This document shows, in pieces, positions 1,699-11,999 of a stretch of DNA of 12,317 bases (positions within the stretch are counted from its first letter, which is position 1; each line of letters opens with the position of its first letter). The position numbers and the translations under genes are program-made. Below the pieces are notes generated by a model that worked only from the letters and a program-made list of their open reading frames with translations, was not told where the DNA came from and did not search any database. The DNA lies in NCBI GenBank assembly GCA_938029515.1, contig CALJAQ010000182.1, positions 1-12,317 on the forward strand. Reading direction: 5' to 3'. Source of the stretch: an uncultured Nitrososphaerales archaeon. Lineage in GTDB: Archaea; Thermoproteota; Nitrososphaeria; Nitrososphaerales; JAAOZN01.

Positions 1699-2235
1699 CT
1701 AACCTTCACTCATACCGAACCTGCAGAGTATTCTCCTCCAGATAAGCGCCGCTAGCCAACCAGCTAAAGCGCCGCTTACAGTGCCTGTAAGTAGAATAGT
1801 GATCTCTAATATGGGGTTCCTTGGTAGGAGGCCTAATGTGAAGGCTGTGACGTAGTATGAGAGAAGCCCAACGAGCCCGGTGCTGACGGTCGCCGATAAA
1901 ACAAGCCTACCCGACTTAATAGCGGCTTTAGAGGATCTGACTCTAAGTAGGCTTGAGAGGTAGTCGACGAGCAGACCGTAGATGAATGCAAACAGGATCG
2001 TAAGTGGGGCAAATGACGGTCTAAAGAGAGTTGTTAAGAGCCCTCCAACAACCGCGACATAGGTTGCACCAAGCCGCCCAAGCAGTAGATAGCCTAGAGT
2101 GAGCATAAGGGCTTGAACCACAACAGCGGCCTTATCGATAGGTGTGGGTAAAGCGGTCTTCGAAGCGAATATGAGGGTAGCGAGTAGGGTTGCCAGAGCC
2201 AGGCGGCGAGTATTTGACTTAACATTCAACCTCAT
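1699..2235 (-). CDS. Small integral membrane protein, ECF transporter S-component-like
   Basis: The product of about 178 residues is strongly hydrophobic, with five or six predicted membrane segments and short basic loops (for example LLRVRSSKAAIKSGR). The organisation (basic N-terminus, first helix with A-S-K, then a long run of short helices with G-R-L-G-A and G-L-L-T-T motifs) resembles the substrate-binding S component of ECF vitamin transporters, but I cannot name a substrate and the family call is tentative. A longer frame runs upstream to 2346, but that part overlaps the radical SAM gene and has no membrane character. The ATG at 2235 directly follows an AGAGGTG ribosome-binding sequence; TTG at 2229 is an alternative with better spacing. 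It overlaps the end of the radical SAM gene by 17 bases, so the two are cotranscribed. Its stop is TAG, with another in-frame TAG two codons later. Confidence 0.7.
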   Translation of the reverse strand: MRLNVKSNTRRLALATLLATLIFASKTALPTPIDKAAVVVQALMLTLGYLLLGRLGATYVAVVGGLLTTLFRPSFAPLTILFAFIYGLLVDYLSSLLRVRSSKAAIKSGRLVLSATVSTGLVGLLSYYVTAFTLGLLPRNPILEITILLTGTVSGALAGWLAALIWRRILCRFGMSEG

Positions 2236-3292
2236 CACCTCTGAGCCAGCATCCTGGGTCAGGTGCCAAGAGATCTCCGCTTTCCTCATAAGCCCTACCT
2301 CTGCATCCGGCGCAGACCTCTCGATGAATGCATCTGCCGCATACACCTTTAAGAAGGCTTCTTGAACGTAGCTTATGTAGAGTAGGTGAGTTATCCCAGA
2401 CTTCAGCTAACTTATCTTTACGCACGTTGCCGAGCCTGGTCTGAAGAAGCATACAGGGGATTAGATCCCCATTCGGAAGTATGGTGAGGTAGCCGCTTGG
2501 CATGCCTGCGGCGCATCCTCGCTGATAGTATGGGATTCGATGTAGGTGTGAAGCTGGGAGGTCTGTTGGGCTGATATTCTTCTCTTTGAGTATTAGGGGG
2601 TACATTGGGCAAGCAGGTACTCTTATTAGGATTGGGCAGCTGCTCTGCGCTTCAGCGAGCCAGTTCATAACCTGCCTCCGCTCATTAACCGTTAAAATAT
2701 CCTCTACGCAACGCTCCTTTACCCTCCTGACCTGGATTAAGTCGAAGAATTCAGCCGCGGTCGCGCCGCTATCAACCGCCATCTTGAGAATGGCTGGGAT
2801 TTCGTTAAGAGTGCTCCTTCTGATTACAGTATTGAACTGGAAAGGGAGACCTGCTTTCCTACAGGCTTTAACCCCTTCCATCGCCTTCATGAAGCTGCCT
2901 TCCTCTCCTCTGAAGGCGTCGTGAGTCTCTGGCTTTGCTCCATCAATAGAGATGGCGACAGCCTGAACACCCACTTTACGCATCTTCAAAGCAGCAGACT
3001 CGTCTATAAGAGTACCATTACTCCCCACAACAACCCTCAAACCCCTTGATGATGCGAAACCCACTATCTCGAAGAAGTCATCTCTACAAAGGGGCTCTCC
3101 ACCATCTAAGATTAGGAGCCTTATACCCCACTTCGCAAGCTCCTCTATAAGCGTAGCCGCCTCTTCGGTGGAGAGCTCATCTGGAGCAAATGTTTCAGAA
3201 GCGTCACTGTAGCAGTGCTTACACCTCAGATTACACCTTCTGGTTAAAGCGTACGAAAGTAGGAAAGGCGGTGGTGTCGATGTTTTAACCAA
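2219..3292 (-). CDS. Radical SAM/SPASM enzyme, AhbD/PqqE-like
   Basis: The 357-residue protein has the radical SAM cluster motif C20-x3-C24-x2-C27 (T-R-R-C-N-L-R-C-K-H-C-Y), then D-G-G-E-P-L (63-68), S-N-G-T-L (91-95) and S-I-D-G-A (115-119). The C-terminal SPASM region has cysteines at 260, 280, 318, 321, 327, 330 and 348, enough for auxiliary Fe-S clusters. The phrases S-I-D-G-A...E-T-H-D-A-F-R-G and C-G-R-C...C-A-G-C-R-G-R-A-Y-E resemble AhbD/NirJ-type heme-biosynthesis enzymes, but PqqE and peptide-maturase relatives share this architecture and no heme gene or small peptide gene is visible nearby, so the substrate is unknown. The start is TTG at 3292; a stop lies a few codons upstream and no ATG or GTG is available before the CxxxCxxC. 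It follows the Lrp gene and overlaps the membrane-protein gene. Confidence 0.88.
   Translation of the reverse strand: MVKTSTPPPFLLSYALTRRCNLRCKHCYSDASETFAPDELSTEEAATLIEELAKWGIRLLILDGGEPLCRDDFFEIVGFASSRGLRVVVGSNGTLIDESAALKMRKVGVQAVAISIDGAKPETHDAFRGEEGSFMKAMEGVKACRKAGLPFQFNTVIRRSTLNEIPAILKMAVDSGATAAEFFDLIQVRRVKERCVEDILTVNERRQVMNWLAEAQSSCPILIRVPACPMYPLILKEKNISPTDLPASHLHRIPYYQRGCAAGMPSGYLTILPNGDLIPCMLLQTRLGNVRKDKLAEVWDNSPTLHKLRSRSLLKGVCGRCIHREVCAGCRGRAYEESGDLLAPDPGCWLRGDEVEC
2236..2243 (-). promoter_or_regulatory. Ribosome-binding site deciding the membrane-protein start
   Basis: On the minus strand the sequence reads CAGAGGTG and abuts the ATG at 2235. AGGTGAT is complementary to the 3' end of archaeal 16S rRNA. 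It lies within the end of the radical SAM gene and points to a start at 2235 or at TTG 2229 rather than the far upstream ATG at 2346. Confidence 0.6.
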
Positions 3293-3317
3293 ACTACTAC
3301 ACGCTTAAGTTCTTTGC

Positions 3318-3326
3318 TCTTTTAAC
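3318..3326 (-). promoter_or_regulatory. Possible TATA box for the radical SAM gene
   Basis: On the minus strand AGTTAAAAG lies 26-34 bases before the TTG start at 3292, the spacing of a leaderless archaeal promoter. The gene could also be read through from the Lrp gene upstream. Composition and spacing are the only support. Confidence 0.35.
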
Positions 3327-3360
3327 TATTGCGCTCTAAGCTAATAATCATCTCTTTATT

Positions 3361-3373
3361 TGCTGATTCAGCA
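3361..3373. repeat. Perfect 13-base palindrome between the Lrp and radical SAM genes
   Basis: TGCTGA-T-TCAGCA is a perfect inverted repeat with a one-base centre. It begins three bases beyond the Lrp stop codon and about 35-45 bases upstream of the possible TATA box of the radical SAM gene. Symmetric dyads at that distance are typical of archaeal activator or Lrp-family binding sites. It is also a potential short hairpin at the end of the Lrp transcript. Confidence 0.5.
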
Positions 3374-3375
3374 GC

Positions 3376-3831
3376 TTAAAAAACATTAAACCTCGTTTCG
3401 ATCTTAACTAACCTAGTCGCGATCCACATCGTAACATCCCTTACACCACGAATCATCTTTATCCTCTGCTTGAGCCCATTCAGACGATCCATATCCTTTA
3501 CATGCGCAACAGCTACTACATCATACTCTCCTGTGGTCTGAAAGACGTGATGCACCTCTTCAATAAACGCTAAACCCTCTATAGCTTCATTCAAGAAGAG
3601 TGGGTCAACCTTCACTAACACAACAGCCGTAACGTTCAGACCGATCTTCCTTGGGTCAATTAGGGCTGTAATCCTAGTCACCGTTTTGTTTTCAAGTAGA
3701 CGTCTAAACCTGTATCTTACCGTCGATTCAGCAACATGCAGCCGCTTGGCCATCTCAGCGGAAGAGACTCGAGCGTTATCCTGAAGCAGCTTAAGTATGC
3801 CTCTATCCACATCATCAACCTCTGCTGACAA
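3376..3831 (-). CDS. Lrp/AsnC-family transcription regulator
   Basis: From the TTG at 3831 the product is 151 residues, the usual Lrp/AsnC size. The N-terminal helix-turn-helix starts at D-D-V-D-R-G-I-L-K-L-L-Q-D-N-A-R and includes A-E-M-A-K-R-L-H-V-A-E-S-T-V-R-Y-R-F-R-R-L. The C-terminal RAM ligand-binding and oligomerisation domain follows, with T-G-E-Y-D-V-V-A-V-A-H-V as its core strand. An in-frame ATG at 3927 would add 32 residues with no similarity to the family, and a TATA-like box sits about 30 bases before the TTG, so the shorter form is preferred. It is the first gene of a minus-strand set with the radical SAM enzyme and membrane protein, so it may regulate them and itself (inference). 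The effector cannot be read from the sequence. Confidence 0.88.
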   Translation of the reverse strand: MSAEVDDVDRGILKLLQDNARVSSAEMAKRLHVAESTVRYRFRRLLENKTVTRITALIDPRKIGLNVTAVVLVKVDPLFLNEAIEGLAFIEEVHHVFQTTGEYDVVAVAHVKDMDRLNGLKQRIKMIRGVRDVTMWIATRLVKIETRFNVF

Positions 3832-3859
3832 ATCGATATAGTAAAAGGTTAAGTAATCT

Positions 3860-3867
3860 TTATTATA
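3860..3867 (-). promoter_or_regulatory. Probable TATA box for the Lrp gene
   Basis: On the minus strand TATAATAA (within AACTATAATAAAG) lies 29-36 bases before the TTG at 3831. This supports the short Lrp product and a short or absent leader. It falls inside the hypothetical longer frame that starts at 3927, which argues against that longer start. Confidence 0.45.
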
Positions 3868-3929
3868 GTTGCTGGCGGCAGAGCAAGCTGCTTTAGATGG
3901 CGATATTCTAGCGATTAAAGTATACATCC

Positions 3930-6561: not shown

Positions 6562-7131
6562 CATATTTCTAGCCGCCTACATCGCAGACAAACCAAACTC
6601 ACAACCAAAACGCTGCAAACATTACAGTAGAAAACACACTATATTAAGCGTAGCGAAGCCTTACAATCATTGTAGACGTTGAAGGCGAATTCATTACAAG
6701 AGTATTCTCCTACAATATGCTCTCTTTAAGGTTTAAAGACGATTTAGAGCAAAGAATTGAGTGCTAATCGATTAACACATAGCAACGCTCTTCACACCCC
6801 ATATGATAACAATTACCCTCCTTCTCTTAACCTGTGCTTTATTTCCTTCTCTCTTTCAGTGAGCTCTTTCAACCTGAGCAGGGCCGCATCGAATCTCACC
6901 CTCCAACCTTTCGCCCTCCGTTTGAACTACTCTTCACTAGAAGTCAGCGAAATCTACCAAATACTCAAAGGGAGGCCTGAGAATCCACATTTTATCTACT
7001 GCCTGGGTGCACCTTTGCAACATTAAGTTAAGAGGCGCAGATAGAAGGTTCGTTAACGTGCTGATTGTAACCTATTTATTTAACGTAGATAACGGTTGAG
7101 AACAAAAACCCATTAGTCTATTGTATACTAG

Positions 7132-7143
7132 TTTAATATATTA
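7132..7143 (+). promoter_or_regulatory. TATA-like element before the glutamate synthase cluster
   Basis: TTTAATATATTA lies 25-36 bases before the TTG start at 7168, fitting a near-leaderless archaeal promoter. A second A/T-rich element (TATTTATTTAAC, about 7073-7084) would give a leader of roughly 60 bases that includes the Shine-Dalgarno sequence. Which one is used cannot be told from sequence. Confidence 0.4.
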
Positions 7144-7151
7144 GTGAATAA

Positions 7152-7159
7152 GAAGGTGA
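7152..7159 (+). promoter_or_regulatory. Shine-Dalgarno sequence supporting the TTG start at 7168
   Basis: GAAGGTGA with a GGTGA core ends 8 bases before TTG 7168. It supports that TTG as the start of the FMN-domain gene, which has no ATG or GTG option in the right frame near the expected N-terminus. Confidence 0.6.
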
Positions 7160-7167
7160 GCCTATAG

Positions 7168-8645
7168 TTGCCCGTAGCTCAGCAGAAGTTAATCGACCAC
7201 TATATTAACCTCCCAAAGCAGGTGTTGAAGGAGTTTTGGACTACTGCCAAGATTAAGTATATTAGAAGGTTGGCTGAAACTGGCAGGGCTACTAGAGTCT
7301 GGACTCCTGAGAATGAACTTTCTACAAGAGTGCTTGATAGATTAAGATTCAAATGCTTAAACGAATCTAATGCTACTTTAGAAGTTGACACTACAATAAG
7401 TGTTGGTAAAGGTTGCATAACCCTTTCGACACCTATTTACCTAGGCGACATGTCTTTGGAAGCCTATCTGGTGTAGCGAACATCGCTATAGCTAGGGCTG
7501 CAGATCTAACCGAAACTTTGGCTGGTACAGGAGAAGGGGGGCTACAGTCTGAGGTAGCTAAGGCGAAGAGAATAGTAGTTCAATGGGCTTCAGCTAGGTT
7601 TGGTGTAGATGCTAAAATACTTGATAGGGGGTTGGCGATCGTAATTAAGATAGGTCAAGGGGCTAAACCTGGTATAGGTGGGCATCTGCCAGCTGTCAAA
7701 GTGACTGAACCTATATCTATGGTGAGGCGAATCCCTCCCCACAAAGACGCTATCTCACCTGCACCACACCATGACATATACTCAATAGAAGATCTAGGCC
7801 AGAGGATAGAAGCTCTAAAAGAATTAACAGGTAAGCCTGTCTTCGTCAAAGTCGCTGCAACAAATTACAGCCAATATATAGCTACTGGCGTCGCCAGAAT
7901 GGGTGGCGACGGAATAATCTTAGATGGGGCAGGTGCTGGAACAGGGGCCGCACCGATTATAGTACGGGACAACTTAAGTATGCCTATAGAGCTGGCTGTA
8001 GCATCTGTTGATAGACTGCTACGTAAAGAGGGGCTTAGAGAGGGCTTCACAATCATAGCAGGTGGACGCGTAAGTAACCCTGAAGACGCTGCTAAGCTTA
8101 TGGCGCTTGGGGCTGATTGTGTGAGTGTTGGTACAGCAGCTCTAATAGCATTAGGATGTATTATGTGCCATAAATGTCACCTCGGTTACTGCCCCGCTCT
8201 CATAACAGATAGGGCCTCATCTAACCCCCTTAGAACGTTATCACTTGATTGGGCTGTAGAGAGGCTTGTCAACTTTATAAAAGGATGGGGTGAGGAGCTC
8301 AAACTTATAATTGGGGCACTCGGTTTAAGCAGGGTTAAAGATCTTGTAGGTAAAAGGGACCTCTTAGAAGCTTATAATATGTGGGATGAGACGGCTTCCA
8401 TTCTAGTGGTTAAGCTTATAAGTAGCTGTTCACTACCACTCGTTACTGGAGAAGGAGGATACTACTCTGAAAGACGTAGGATGCATCTTAAAGCTTTAGC
8501 TGAGAAAGGTATACCTCTAATCGGTAGCATGGGTTCTTGCAGCCCTCCTTTTGTTGAGTCGCCGAAGGCTGTATGCGACTACCTTATCTCAGACGGCGCA
8601 CAGGTGACGAGGCCAAGTATAGATCCATATAGAGAGGAAATATAG
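7168..8645 (+). CDS. glxD: Glutamate synthase FMN/3Fe-4S domain subunit, frameshifted
   Basis: Read through a one-base shift at 7455-7457, this encodes a 492-residue protein equivalent to the FMN-binding synthase domain of GltB. It makes glutamate from 2-oxoglutarate and ammonia using electrons passed through FMN. Visible signatures, in composite numbering: [12 protein letters not shown] spanning the shift, G-E-G-G (122-125), [16 protein letters not shown] (about 161-175), [16 protein letters not shown] (195-210), [11 protein letters not shown] (253-263), and the 3Fe-4S motif C331-x5-C337-x4-C342. After residue 405 the frame enters the start of a GltB central domain (G-S-M-G at 453-456; [14 protein letters not shown]) and hits TAG. 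The catalytic part is canonical apart from the shift. Start TTG 7168 has a good ribosome-binding site. Confidence 0.85.
7453..7458 (+). other. Frameshift site in the FMN-domain gene
   Basis: Upstream frame reads D-M-S then L-E-A-Y-L-V-stop. Shifting back one base after TCT (7453-7455) gives [11 protein letters not shown], the family's conserved M-S-F-G sequence. The run TTT at 7455-7457 would be in frame if it were TTTT. No canonical X-XXY-YYZ slippery heptamer is present, so a missing T (real mutation or base-call error in a homopolymer) is the simplest reading. Confidence 0.85.
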
Positions 8646-8648
8646 ATA
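8643..8648 (+). other. In-frame TAG within an apparent six-base insertion
   Basis: The frame reads ...R-E-E-I, TAG, I-V-S-Y-L-S-G... and stays in the same frame on both sides. GltB central domains read R-E-E-L-V-M-S-L at this place, so removing TAG plus ATA gives R-E-E-I-V-S-Y-L, a gap-free match. The local repeat ATATAGATAG suggests slippage as the source. TAG also ends the membrane-protein gene and the beta-helix gene, so it is used as a stop in this genome. Confidence 0.6.
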
Positions 8649-9452
8649 GTATCGTATCTTAGTGGCATCAGGCTCTCTGCACCTATATTCTTCTCACAGC
8701 TTAAAGGTTTGCCTAAAGGGCTTGTAGAGGTCTTCGCAAAAGTGGCTAAGGCGCATGGTTTGATGATTTATACTACGCTCGATGAATATGATGAACACGT
8801 AGCGGAATACGTTGAGAACCTTATGCTGGCTGTAGATGATCCTGTTAGTGTACCAGAGAACGTGGGAGTGATTGTGATAGATGCTGAACATGAAAGTAAG
8901 CCATTTAGAGAAGCTTTTCCAGATAAGCCCTTATATGTTAGGATTCATTCGTCTGAGCAGAGCCTAATATCTACACCAAAGCTAGCACGAAGAGGGTTCG
9001 ACGGGATAATAGTTGACGCCGATCTAATCTACCCACCAGCAGCGCTTGATGTAGCTGTTATGACAGCCGAAGCAGATTGGAGTCTTAGAGAGGTGTTTTA
9101 TAGTGGTAGCCCTGTTAGGAACCAACTTAACTTATTATGTGGAGGGGACTCTGTAAGAGGTGCTGATGACATATTCAAGCTGCTCTGCCTAGGAGCTGAC
9201 GCTGTTGGATTAAGTAAAGCTGCGCTCGTTGCTATAGGGTATGAAGAAGGTAAAACTATAGATCTGCAGGAAGCACGCATCAAACTCGAGAACCTCATAC
9301 TTGGGCTAAAAGGTGAGATAAGACTTCTAGCAGGTGCAGCTGGTGTAAGCAGCTTATATACTTCACTTGTAGGGAACCGTGAGCTGCTAAGAAGTGTAGA
9401 TCTAGATCCAGCTATAAGAAGGAGGCTAAGGGTGAAGGCTGCTGGAACCTAA
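8646..9452 (+). CDS. Glutamate synthase central-like domain, continuation after TAG
   Basis: This stretch continues the preceding frame after TAG and runs 268 codons. It resembles a second, FMN-less synthase barrel like the GltB central domain: it opens with S-G-I-R-L-S-A-P-I-F-F (parallel to the I-T-L-S-T-P-I-Y of the FMN domain) and ends with G-G-D-S-V-R-G-A-D-D, L-G-A-D-A-V-G-L-S-K-A-A-L-V-A-I-G, then L-L-A-G-A-A-G-V and L-V-G-N-R-E-L-L-R. The FMN-binding glycine runs and the 3Fe-4S cysteines of the first barrel are missing. No ATG or GTG follows the TAG; the first usual start is TTG at 8709, which would delete the first beta strand. ATA at 8646 sits after GAGAGGA but would be a rare start. 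I infer that it was, or still is, the C-terminal part of the FMN-domain protein. Confidence 0.65.
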   Translation: MVSYLSGIRLSAPIFFSQLKGLPKGLVEVFAKVAKAHGLMIYTTLDEYDEHVAEYVENLMLAVDDPVSVPENVGVIVIDAEHESKPFREAFPDKPLYVRIHSSEQSLISTPKLARRGFDGIIVDADLIYPPAALDVAVMTAEADWSLREVFYSGSPVRNQLNLLCGGDSVRGADDIFKLLCLGADAVGLSKAALVAIGYEEGKTIDLQEARIKLENLILGLKGEIRLLAGAAGVSSLYTSLVGNRELLRSVDLDPAIRRRLRVKAAGT

Positions 9453-9468
9453 CTGTTATACACCTATA

Positions 9469-10557
9469 GTGAAGGGTGGATGCGGTGTTTTCGGTGTGTT
9501 AAGGAAGAACTCTGCACACAAGATCAGCAACCTTACTCCACTTAGGGCTATTGAATGCGTAAGGTTTAGGGGAAGCCAACTTGGCGCAGGCTTCGCTTCT
9601 TTCGATATACCCGAAGGCACACCACCCCCTATAAGGGTGAAGGTATTTGTCGACAATGACAAAACATTATCGTTTGTGAGGTTAATGTTAAAAGGAGCCG
9701 TTAAAAATCGTAGGTTAAATATGTTAAGTGAAAAGTTGTCGAAATTTAATGTTGAAGGCTTTAAAGTTTATGAAGCATTTATTGAAGCAACTCCCTCTAC
9801 ACTCCAAACTATAGTAGACCAACTTAACTTGAGGCTGATGAGTGAAGACGGTGTAAAAGGGAGAGTTTTTTCCTACGGGAGGTATGTGGATGTTTTCAAA
9901 GATGTGGGCTACCCGTCAGATGTAGCAGCAAAATACGGTTTAGATTATGATGTTATGAAAGGGGACGCTTGGCTTGCACACACAAGGCAGCCCACGAACT
10001 CTCCTGGCACAACCCCCGTCTGGTCGCACCCCTTTTCAGCGCATGAGGTAGCGGTTGTGCATAACGGTGACATAAGTTCTTATGGTTCCAACCAGCAGAT
10101 ACTCAGTCTAGCTGGCTATAGAAGCTTTGTGGGTACAGATAGTGAGGTCATAGCGTTTATGCTGGATTATCTAATTAGGGTTAGGGGGTATACGTTAGAG
10201 CAGTCCTTAACAGTGCTACAGAATCCATATGAGCGTGTGCTAAACTTATCACCACTTAAAGACGATGTTATGAGGCTAATGAATGAAGCAAGGGGATGCC
10301 AGCTAGATGGACCATTCACTGTTATAGCAGGCTACTGCGATGGGGAAGATATTTACCTTATGGCGCTTGTTGATAGAGCCAAATTTAGACCTATTGTATT
10401 TGGTGAGGACAACGATGCTATTTACGTCGCAAGTGAGGAGAGCCAGATTAGATGTATATCACCTTTAGCAGAGGTTTGGACGCCTGAGCCTGGAGAGATC
10501 TTCCTAGCATCGCTTAGGAGAGGGCTGATTCGTAGAGGTAGGTCTGAGGATGGTTGA
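9469..10557 (+). CDS. glxB: Glutamate synthase amidotransferase domain, class II
   Basis: The 362-residue protein is the glutamine amidotransferase (Ntn hydrolase) domain of archaeal glutamate synthase; it releases ammonia from glutamine for the FMN domain. It shows C-G-V-F-G-V-L-R-K with the nucleophile at Cys5, R-G-S (34-36), H-T-R-Q-P-T-N-S (171-178), H-N-G-D-I (198-202) and T-D-S-E (223-226), the usual substrate-binding and oxyanion residues. An insertion of about 120 residues separates the N-terminal strand from H-T-R, as in archaeal stand-alone forms. Class II enzymes need the Cys at the mature N-terminus, so the four residues before it (M-K-G-G) must be removed unless an alternative start is used. 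GTG at 9469 is chosen as the nearest start; it lies 16 bases after the previous stop. The gene is intact and overlaps the next by 8 bases. Confidence 0.9.
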   Translation: MKGGCGVFGVLRKNSAHKISNLTPLRAIECVRFRGSQLGAGFASFDIPEGTPPPIRVKVFVDNDKTLSFVRLMLKGAVKNRRLNMLSEKLSKFNVEGFKVYEAFIEATPSTLQTIVDQLNLRLMSEDGVKGRVFSYGRYVDVFKDVGYPSDVAAKYGLDYDVMKGDAWLAHTRQPTNSPGTTPVWSHPFSAHEVAVVHNGDISSYGSNQQILSLAGYRSFVGTDSEVIAFMLDYLIRVRGYTLEQSLTVLQNPYERVLNLSPLKDDVMRLMNEARGCQLDGPFTVIAGYCDGEDIYLMALVDRAKFRPIVFGEDNDAIYVASEESQIRCISPLAEVWTPEPGEIFLASLRRGLIRRGRSEDG

Positions 10558-11494
10558 GGAAGGTGAAGTAAATGCATCTGTTCCAACTTCAGATGCGCAT
10601 ACTATAGATGCAGCTAATCTTTCGAGTCGAGAGTTAAATCAAGCCATTCTTAACCTCATAAAGGAGGGGGTCAAGAGGTTGAAGGTTTTAAATGTAAATG
10701 GTCAGCGTTACATAGGTTTAAACCTAGCCGGCTTAGCCTGTGAAGACGTAGAAGTTACTCTTACAGGCTATGTAGGTAACTGTCTTGCTAACCTTAACAG
10801 CAGTGTAAGTTTTACAGTTTACGGAAACTGCGGTGACGATTTAGCTGACACTATGCACGGAGGTAGAGTTGTGGTTCATGGTGATGCCAGAGATGTGGTA
10901 GCGCAAGCATTACAAGGTGGTGTAGTGTATGTAAAAGGTAACGTTGGCAATAGGGCTGGGATACAGATGAGAGAATATCTTCATAGGCGACCTTATTTAG
11001 TAATAGGTGGTTATGCAGACGACTATTTAGGTGAATACTTGGCTGGTGGCGTCATCATTATACTCGGTATAAAATGGGCAAAGAAGTCTGTTGGAAACTA
11101 TGTGGGCAGCGGTATGGTTGGTGGAAGAATTTACATAAGAGATAAGGTAGAGCTATCAAAGATAGGTGTCCAGCCACCTGAAAAAGATATAGAAACACAT
11201 CTAACCTTGTTAGCAGAAGAGGGCGCATTAGATGAAATATTATATACTACCGTAAAAAGAAAAATATCATACCATACACTAAAGGCAAAACTACAGAATG
11301 AAATATTTGAACGTGTCAAAAGATACTATCTTTCAACATACGTTGAACCGCCTATCTGTGAATACAGAGAATTAAACACGTACGAGACACAGGAAATCGA
11401 ACCCATCCTTGAAGACTATATTTCAACTTTTAATCTGCCTCAAAAATTGTTAGAAGTGATCCTATGCTCAAAGTTTACGGTTCTCTCACAATAG
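10550..11494 (+). CDS. glxC: Glutamate synthase GXGXG beta-helix domain
   Basis: The 314-residue protein is the GXGXG (right-handed beta-helix) domain that ends GltB and stabilises the complex. The glycine-rich coils run from about residue 65 to 205: G-Y-V-G-N-C, V-Y-G-N-C-G-D-D, H-G-G-R-V-V-V-H-G-D-A, Q-G-G-V-V-Y-V-K-G-N-V-G, A-G-G-V-I-I-I-L-G, and G-S-G-M-V-G-G-R-I-Y-I-R. The roughly 100 residues that follow are helical and end S-K-F-T-V-L-S-Q at TAG, close to the usual end of archaeal stand-alone forms. ATG at 10550 lies 8 bases inside the amidotransferase gene, so translation is coupled. The N-terminal 60 residues are helical and variable. A decayed transposase begins directly after the stop, so the last few residues could have been altered by an insertion. 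Confidence 0.9.
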   Translation: MVEEGEVNASVPTSDAHTIDAANLSSRELNQAILNLIKEGVKRLKVLNVNGQRYIGLNLAGLACEDVEVTLTGYVGNCLANLNSSVSFTVYGNCGDDLADTMHGGRVVVHGDARDVVAQALQGGVVYVKGNVGNRAGIQMREYLHRRPYLVIGGYADDYLGEYLAGGVIIILGIKWAKKSVGNYVGSGMVGGRIYIRDKVELSKIGVQPPEKDIETHLTLLAEEGALDEILYTTVKRKISYHTLKAKLQNEIFERVKRYYLSTYVEPPICEYRELNTYETQEIEPILEDYISTFNLPQKLLEVILCSKFTVLSQ

Positions 11495-11999
11495 CTAATA
11501 CTCCGAAGACATCTTTCGTTGCAGTTCATATCAGCGGAGGTCTGATGTTGACACCTCAACGAAGCCTCTCTAGAGCAACCCTGTACCACGGCCCTTTATC
11601 GACGAGGATTATAGGTCTATTCAAGCAGGTATTCAGCATCACGGTGAGGAAGATGTATGCGTTCAATGGATAGAGCTGTTATGATGCAGAGACAGCGAGA
11701 GTTCCTCTACTCTCGATATCGATGGCATCCCATAGGTAAAGCCATGAAGCTTCGTCTCATCTACCGCTATCATGAACTCTTCTTTGGAGGACCATGATAA
11801 GCAACTCTTCCAGCTTATGCACCCAGAGCCCGGCAGCCTCCCTTGAAGCCTTGATCAAACAATACTTCTTGTCACCCCTCTTGTGCTCAAACAGCTAAGA
11901 AGAGGATTATGCATGAACCTTATCTTCTAGCTTGACCTTACTGCGCTTGAAGACCCTAAGCTCCCTCACAGCATCTAGAAACCATTCAAAGGCCCTTAT
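11485..11999 (-). pseudogene. Decayed insertion-sequence transposase (DDE, IS6/IS240-like)
   Basis: Reading the minus strand from 11999 down, pieces of one transposase appear in order but in shifting frames. First A-F-E-W-F-L-D-A-V-R-E-L-R-V-F-K-R-S-K ending at a stop near 11908. Then S-R-E-A-A-G-L-W-V-H-K-L (about 11845-11800), a helix-turn-helix-like segment. Then E-E-F-M-I-A-V-D-E-T-K-L (about 11782-11745), which holds the first catalytic Asp. Then Y-L-W-D-A-I-D-I-E-S-R (about 11737-11705). Then D-A-E-Y-L-L-E (about 11640), and R-P-I-I-L-V-D-K-G-P-W-Y-R-V-A-L-E-R-L (about 11612-11555), which holds the second Asp. Several stops and at least three frame changes show it is dead. The DET and VDKGPWY motifs fit the archaeal IS6/IS240-type DDE family; the exact family is uncertain. 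I did not find terminal inverted repeats. Confidence 0.78.

Follow-up and report, generated by a model that had tools for sequence, protein, structure and literature searches.

An archaeal-type glutamate synthase locus predicted on a Nitrososphaerales contig, with an interrupted FMN-central gene

In bacterial GltB, as in Escherichia coli and Azospirillum brasilense, four domains lie on one polypeptide in the order amidotransferase, central, flavin mononucleotide (FMN)-binding and GXGXG. The nearest archaeal proteins are the FMN-binding glutamate synthases, such as that of Sulfodiicoccus acidiphilus (P0032, 704 aa), in which the FMN barrel is followed by the central domain within one protein. 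That archaea can have frames for single domains of glutamate synthase (GltS) has been mentioned in a general way (PMC8097209), and a GXGXG-ferredoxin-FMN protein has been reported from Ignicoccus (PMC2614490). As to the central domain of GltB, the SCOP authors stated from structure that the FMN domain was duplicated and that the copy lost three beta/alpha units (PMC5011417), and a 2021 review leaves the choice between duplication of the FMN barrel and an independent origin (PMC8097209). The DNA considered here, referred to as the window, is the 12,317 nucleotides of contig CALJAQ010000182.1 (assembly GCA_938029515.1), from an uncultured Nitrososphaerales archaeon. Positions 7168-11494 of the window very probably represent a three-gene operon for an archaeal-type glutamate synthase of the class Nitrososphaeria, in which the central domain would be a cofactor-less duplicate of the FMN barrel and in which the FMN-central gene is interrupted.

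Among the relatives found, G001 (JARVJZ010000002.1, Nitrososphaeria archaeon DRTY6_bin.124) is the closest, its central domain (locus L057, 4537-6804) being 84% identical to that of the window; a second congener is G002. In contrast to the single polypeptide of GltB, the window has an FMN-central gene (7168-9452) followed by separate class II amidotransferase (9469-10557) and GXGXG (10550-11494) genes, with the following features:

7153-7159, + strand: AAGGTGA, Shine-Dalgarno-like, preceding the TTG at 7168, read from the sequence
7168-7453, + strand: N-terminal portion of the FMN subunit, read in the first frame; 77.7% identity to G001 over 94 aligned positions (7177-7458)
7454, + strand: frame break, one base less than in G001 and G002 by DNA alignment
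7455-8450, + strand: remaining FMN barrel and C-terminal extension (end set by the analyst); PF01645, 309.7 bits; 69 of 70 covered signature columns
8157-8192, + strand: C-x5-C-x4-C, expected ligands of a [3Fe-4S] cluster; read from the sequence, the three cysteines being invariant in 38 of 38 relatives
8451-8642, + strand: header of the central domain, containing GSMG (8523-8534) and [14 protein letters not shown]; PF04898, 52.3 bits, and header profile against GltB
8643-8645, + strand: in-frame TAG, which is GAG in G001 and GAA in G002
8646-9452, + strand: putative barrel of the central domain, lacking FMN and Fe-S residues and closed by TAA; 84% identity to the G001 fused protein, and profile comparisons
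9469-10557, + strand: class II glutamine amidotransferase gene with a candidate nucleophile Cys codon at 9481-9483; GATase_6, 27.2 bits; 82.7% identity to G001
10550-11494, + strand: GXGXG beta-helix gene; PF01493, 81.7 bits; 8-base overlap with the amidotransferase gene

Both PF01645 and the start of PF04898 (profile positions 7-70 of 277) are matched within the frame at 7413-8642, in which [14 protein letters not shown] sits directly ahead of 8642. There are 72 FMN columns in which one and the same residue accounts for at least 95% of the archaeal and of the GltB sequences, and it is these signature columns that are counted above; GltB has them in common with the window, as it does the four domains, the cluster cysteines and the header methionine. 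The C-terminal piece, 8646-9449, taken alone matches PF01645 at 20.8 bits (cut-off 20.4), and the amidotransferase score compares with a GATase_6 cut-off of 27. The candidate nucleophile is residue 5 after a GTG, with a similar CG-(V/I)-FG context in most of 18 relatives, and G001 likewise has AAGGTGA and then a TTG. An earlier note, made from the letters of this DNA, had proposed a glutamate synthase of rearranged order: the order FMN, central, amidotransferase and GXGXG is confirmed by Pfam, but 7168-9452 is not one open frame, being broken at 7454 and by the TAG, and the note makes no mention of this. Overall, what the note observed is partly confirmed and its interpretation partly supported.

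The FMN-central order is common in archaea and is not unique to the window. Among the best 120 of 7998 scored protein hits, 118 have both PF01645 and PF04898; names among the 120 include Sulfolobales, Ferroplasma, Thaumarchaeota, Bathyarchaeia and Vulcanisaeta, and some have the UniRef name 'Archaeal glutamate synthase [NADPH]'. The archaeal FMN-binding glutamate synthases among the listed hits are 57-70% identical to the window piece, and the fusion forms one frame of ~700 aa in many archaea. In a scan of GTDB contigs, 42 named archaeal loci were found, with FMN and central domains in one frame in 26, in two frames in 15 (L075, L076, L080, L082, L084, L086, L088-L091, L093, L094, L096-L098) and cut by the contig end in one (L067). 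The amidotransferase is downstream in all 42, and the GXGXG domain in 41 (L077 stops at the contig edge). These two parts share one frame in 39 of the 42, the exceptions being L057 (two genes), L060 (two overlapping frames) and L077 (contig end). The order is fixed across the 42 named loci and the window's genus, while the fusion points vary, which is presented here as new. Full-text searches of an open-access library gave no earlier account of the FMN-central order, nor of central domains encoded as genes of their own, which is weak evidence of absence since the subscription literature was mostly outside the search.

The record titles of the two-frame loci are Caldarchaeum, Calditenuaceae, Calditenuis, Pelearchaeum, Terraquivivens, Aigarchaeota and Archaeon HR02. 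In one of them, L086, the stop codon of the FMN frame overlaps the start codon of the central frame (ATGA). All 15 stand-alone central proteins match PF04898, 7 of them also matching PF01645, and all 38 fused proteins scanned match PF01645 and then PF04898. In both close relatives the fusion is a single stop-free frame (767 codons in G001, 779 in G002), absence of the fusion from close relatives having been named in the note as contrary to its reading. The distinct architecture that it foresaw, an FMN subunit with its own C-terminal central domain, does exist, but is not singular, given the 26 fused loci and the 118 hits among the best 120 listed. The window differs from the archaeal family in that its copy is interrupted twice and in that its amidotransferase and GXGXG genes are separate, as they are in all three genomes of the genus. 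The enzyme is an ordinary archaeal one, in an uncommon and possibly broken copy.

Other archaeal loci are divided further. As in the window, the amidotransferase and other parts are separate in split-gene archaeal GltS with a stand-alone FMN protein (L040, 519 codons) or a GXGXG-ferredoxin-FMN frame (L186); no central domain was found, in the analyst's reading, in the FMN frames of L040, L186 and Ignicoccus, of which the latter two have a ferredoxin domain. In two relatives belonging to the taxonomic order of the window, G048 (L188, 1145-7160) and G032 (L189, 2125-7300), there are four separate genes in the same sequence as in the window, for FMN, central-like, amidotransferase and GXGXG proteins (the GXGXG label was run for G048 only), adjoining a type I glutamine synthetase gene (TIGR00653 over cut-off). 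The FMN protein of this set keeps 53-54 of the 72 signature columns; the central-like protein is below the PF04898 cut-off in G032 (17.0 bits) and has no PF04898 match in G048. A strong PF01645 match is present in 2 of 6 genomes of family f8, representing the four-gene set, and PF01645 is matched in 0 of 6 genomes of family f10; these may be ammonia oxidisers, which is a guess based on genome size.

A different barrel pair is present in L182-L185 (G059, G044, G052 and G027), where a ferredoxin-barrel frame with a weak PF01645 match is upstream of a ferredoxin-FMN frame and the pair adjoins a large amidotransferase-like frame. In L185 the two are fused in one 970-codon frame. In the tree described below these upstream barrels cluster with the partner barrels (bootstrap 84), as though they had arisen by a duplication of their own. 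Among GltB-like proteins, one on a Shinella plasmid (L104) is annotated over 5,487 bases, longer than E. coli GltB (1,486 aa), to which it is 35% identical.

The origin of the central domain was addressed by profile comparison, for which the hhalign E-values refer to a single template rather than a database, and reversed and column-shuffled nulls were run. The archaeal central domain matches the archaeal FMN barrel with E 1.3e-35 over 259 columns; the score of this real pair is 187.6, that of the reversed and the 60 column-shuffled profiles (20 each of three) at most 9.8. In 38 of 38 proteins the central half is similar to the FMN half of the same protein by blastp (E < 1e-3, database of one). 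The archaeal central domain also matches the GltB central domain, with E 3.1e-15 using 5 GltB sequences and 1.5e-19 using 26, and the archaeal header matches the GltB header with E 1.7e-10, at 41% over 61 columns. Within GltB itself, no similarity was detectable between the central and FMN domains (E 0.058 with 5 sequences, 0.11 with 26). Ten five-sequence subsamples of the archaeal comparison still gave E 4.4e-15 to 1.1e-27, and the GltB negative holds with 26 sequences, so depth alone does not explain it. Taken by itself, the barrel of the GltB central domain faintly resembles the archaeal FMN barrel (E 1.3e-4, and 2.7e-4 in a second comparison). In the four-gene set, the central-like proteins of G048 and G032 match the archaeal central profile (E 2.6e-14 and 2.3e-15), with no hhalign link to the GltB central or FMN profiles.

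The archaeal fused central domains keep 7-16 of the 72 signature columns and their cluster cysteines are gone, which agrees with the note's expectation of a second barrel lacking FMN residues, and extends it to the Fe-S residues. By profile comparison the archaeal central domain is homologous to both the FMN barrel and the GltB central domain, which supports, from sequence, the duplication that SCOP derived from structure, and the suggestion that the locus bears on how GltB was assembled is upheld. The SMG header was not found in FMN barrels (E 0.62). It is therefore the header that carries the case for a single origin of the central domains, the tree being compatible with other histories as well.

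The maximum-likelihood tree has 93 tips and 184 barrel columns, the tips being subsampled (16 F and C names, 12 GltB names), and hhalign merging had before that retained 13 of the 15 stand-alone and 37 of the 38 fused central domains, 25 of the 26 GltB FMN domains and three of the four members of each ferredoxin-linked group. All 43 central domains fall in one clade, not counting three ferredoxin-linked upstream barrels, with an ultrafast bootstrap of 92, below 95. Approximately unbiased (AU) tests did not reject the grouping of the GltB central domain with the GltB FMN barrel (p 0.247), of the archaeal central domain with the archaeal FMN barrel (p 0.555), or of all C-type barrels together, including the ferredoxin-linked ones (p 0.357), and nothing was rejected in an AU run with fast, under-optimised constrained trees either. 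The phylogeny against GltB that the note called for therefore yields the clade but does not separate one duplication from several, and a single duplication is not claimed. A deletion pattern shared by the C-type barrels in the merged alignment was set aside as evidence, being partly produced by construction, as the rows were mapped through the archaeal central profile.

It is possible, though rather unlikely, that glutamate synthases go back to two barrels produced by duplication, of which one was catalytic and the other decayed, that archaea keep the FMN-then-central arrangement in forms ranging from four genes to two fusions, and that bacterial GltB was fused separately with its first three parts reversed. 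If so, the stand-alone central genes would be the surviving pre-fusion form of the GltB central domain. GltB is often cited as a large enzyme built of modules, and the archaeal proteins provide a sequence link for its central domain. With the stand-alone genes, the part that this domain plays in channelling ammonia and transferring electrons could also be tested, by supplying it again as a protein of its own.

Two breaks interrupt the FMN-central gene of the window. At 7454 one T is missing from a run of T by comparison with G001 and G002, so that the N-terminal frame (7168-7476) is offset by one from the frame at 7413-8642; the only other length difference from G001, in the compared stretch ending at 10949, is one whole codon at 7414. 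The TAG at 8643-8645 falls within the central domain, past the conserved REEI, and the first ATG, GTG or TTG after it in frame is the TTG at 8709. The TAG break is not the two-gene split seen elsewhere, because it is inside the central domain, while in the 15 two-gene loci the central gene starts ahead of the SMG header.

The ratio of non-synonymous to synonymous substitution (dN/dS) against G001 is 0.163 for 7177-7458, 0.117 for 7455-9449, 0.115 for the amidotransferase and 0.156 for the GXGXG gene. Within the FMN-central gene it is 0.129 for the FMN part, 0.094 for the header and 0.108 for the central part, and is therefore unrelaxed on both sides of the TAG. Selection has accordingly maintained the gene over most of the period after its divergence from G001, and the breaks are either recent or artefacts. 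The gene here is either newly inactivated or mis-sequenced, both congeners being intact.

There is about an even chance that both breaks are errors of assembly or sequencing and that the gene is intact in the organism. The unrelaxed dN/dS on either side of the TAG, the position of the missing base in a T run, the intact genes of both congeners and the draft state of the genome (72.34% complete) all favour this. However, the window and 20 other contigs of the genome were compared with 393,598 bases of G001, and in the 32 orthologue stretches obtained, which lie on the window and 6 of the other contigs and amount to 30,855 aligned coding bases, the FMN-central gene alone had lesions, and it has two. 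Six rows were flagged in this control; five of them have a stop solely within the initial 15 residues of the stop-to-stop frame, ahead of the probable start codon, and the sixth is the FMN-central gene. The chance that two random errors would both strike this gene is ~0.005, although the gene was chosen because it looked odd.

The concentration of two lesions in one gene, with none in the 31 other stretches sampled, would fit a young pseudogene, or a variant segregating in the population, with ammonia assimilated by another route, for which the probability falls a little short of even. In its favour there is a fragment matching PF00208 over cut-off (Glu/Leu/Phe/Val dehydrogenase, probably glutamate dehydrogenase) at a contig edge, and the loss of glutamate synthase has been inferred in the ancestor of the ammonia-oxidising archaea (PMC7554672); against it, selection is not relaxed and the amidotransferase and GXGXG frames are open. 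That both interruptions lie within otherwise conserved sequence could also be accounted for by decoding of the TAG as an amino acid, through pyrrolysine or suppression, together with programmed slippage of the frame. This is very improbable, as the sister G001 has GAG and no gap, and there is by eye no slippery heptamer at 7454. TAG also terminates the GXGXG gene and one other of the 10 window frames checked, and PylS exceeds its cut-off in none of 6 genomes, against one of 14 controls, so that TAG seems to be an ordinary stop here. Read-through, including through pyrrolysine, is accordingly disfavoured.

By homology with the bacterial alpha-GltS, as described in the review (PMC8097209), the locus would function as a glutamate synthase. 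The separate amidotransferase would hydrolyse glutamine, the ammonia would travel through a tunnel lined by the FMN and central domains, and the 2-iminoglutarate formed with 2-oxoglutarate would be reduced to glutamate at the FMN. Electrons would reach the FMN via the [3Fe-4S] cluster, with the methionine of the central SMG motif beside the path, and the central domain would be a cofactor-less, shortened duplicate of the FMN barrel, here placed after that barrel instead of before it. Neither the SMG methionine nor the cluster cysteines vary among the 38 relatives, and the methionine is likewise invariant in 15 of 15 stand-alone central proteins; it corresponds to Met479 of A. brasilense (analyst's numbering from Cys1), which may control or take part in electron transfer (PMC8097209). 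As to partners, a 466-aa protein on another contig matches TIGR01316, 'gltA, NADPH-dependent glutamate synthase', at 609.9 bits (cut-off 471.75), and there is a glutamine synthetase frame at a contig end elsewhere in the genome.

That the product might differ from glutamate had also been raised, the same folds being used by N-methylglutamate synthase (MgsABC). The comparison is with one reference, Aminobacter L106, from which the MgsC/GlxD-like feature set was read, its label being the analyst's and taken from the neighbouring glnT and sarcosine oxidase genes. As in the window, amidotransferase, GXGXG and FMN genes are clustered in L106, and the three folds are alike and in separate genes. PF01645 is present, but L106 keeps 45 of the 72 signature columns, where the window has 69 of the 70 that it covers; it is without the three cluster cysteines, and has no PF04898 match and no central-domain gene annotated within 4 kb. 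An MgsABC or GlxBCD-like enzyme is on this evidence a most unlikely identity for the operon, and the suggestion is not supported.

Several results weigh against an archaeal-type glutamate synthase with a barrel-derived central domain. The barrel of the archaeal central domain, without the header, matches the GltB central domain weakly (E 2e-5 with 5 GltB sequences; 2.7e-7, probability 89%, with 26), and the similarity of the archaeal central profile to the GltB FMN domain is marginal (E 5e-4 with 5, 0.016 with 26). The candidate nucleophile of the amidotransferase is residue 5 of the likely protein, and N-terminal processing must therefore be assumed. GltD-type PF14691 has only partial matches in the sister G001, so that conservation of the partner protein is not supported. 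In addition, the window piece 8646-9449 alone does not reach PF04898, and on its PF01645 match would nominally be FMN domain only, a result that the note had named as contrary to its reading. The relatives settle this otherwise: the corresponding central domain matches PF04898 over 105-263 (G037) and 123-263 (G045) of 277, in keeping with the PF04898 matches of every fused and stand-alone protein scanned.

Elsewhere in the window, the genes at 306-1470 overlap and encode an NTP_transf_2 nucleotidyltransferase and a HEPN protein, by their look an MNT-HEPN pair; both are adjacent in G001 also, where ~55 kb separates them from the glutamate synthase genes. For 7100-11600, no match was found in plasmid DNA. 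On the - strand, 2219-3927 encodes a radical SAM/SPASM protein, nearest to the heme b synthase AhbD and NirJ2 models at scores below their cut-offs, and this gene adjoins one of the Lrp/AsnC family.

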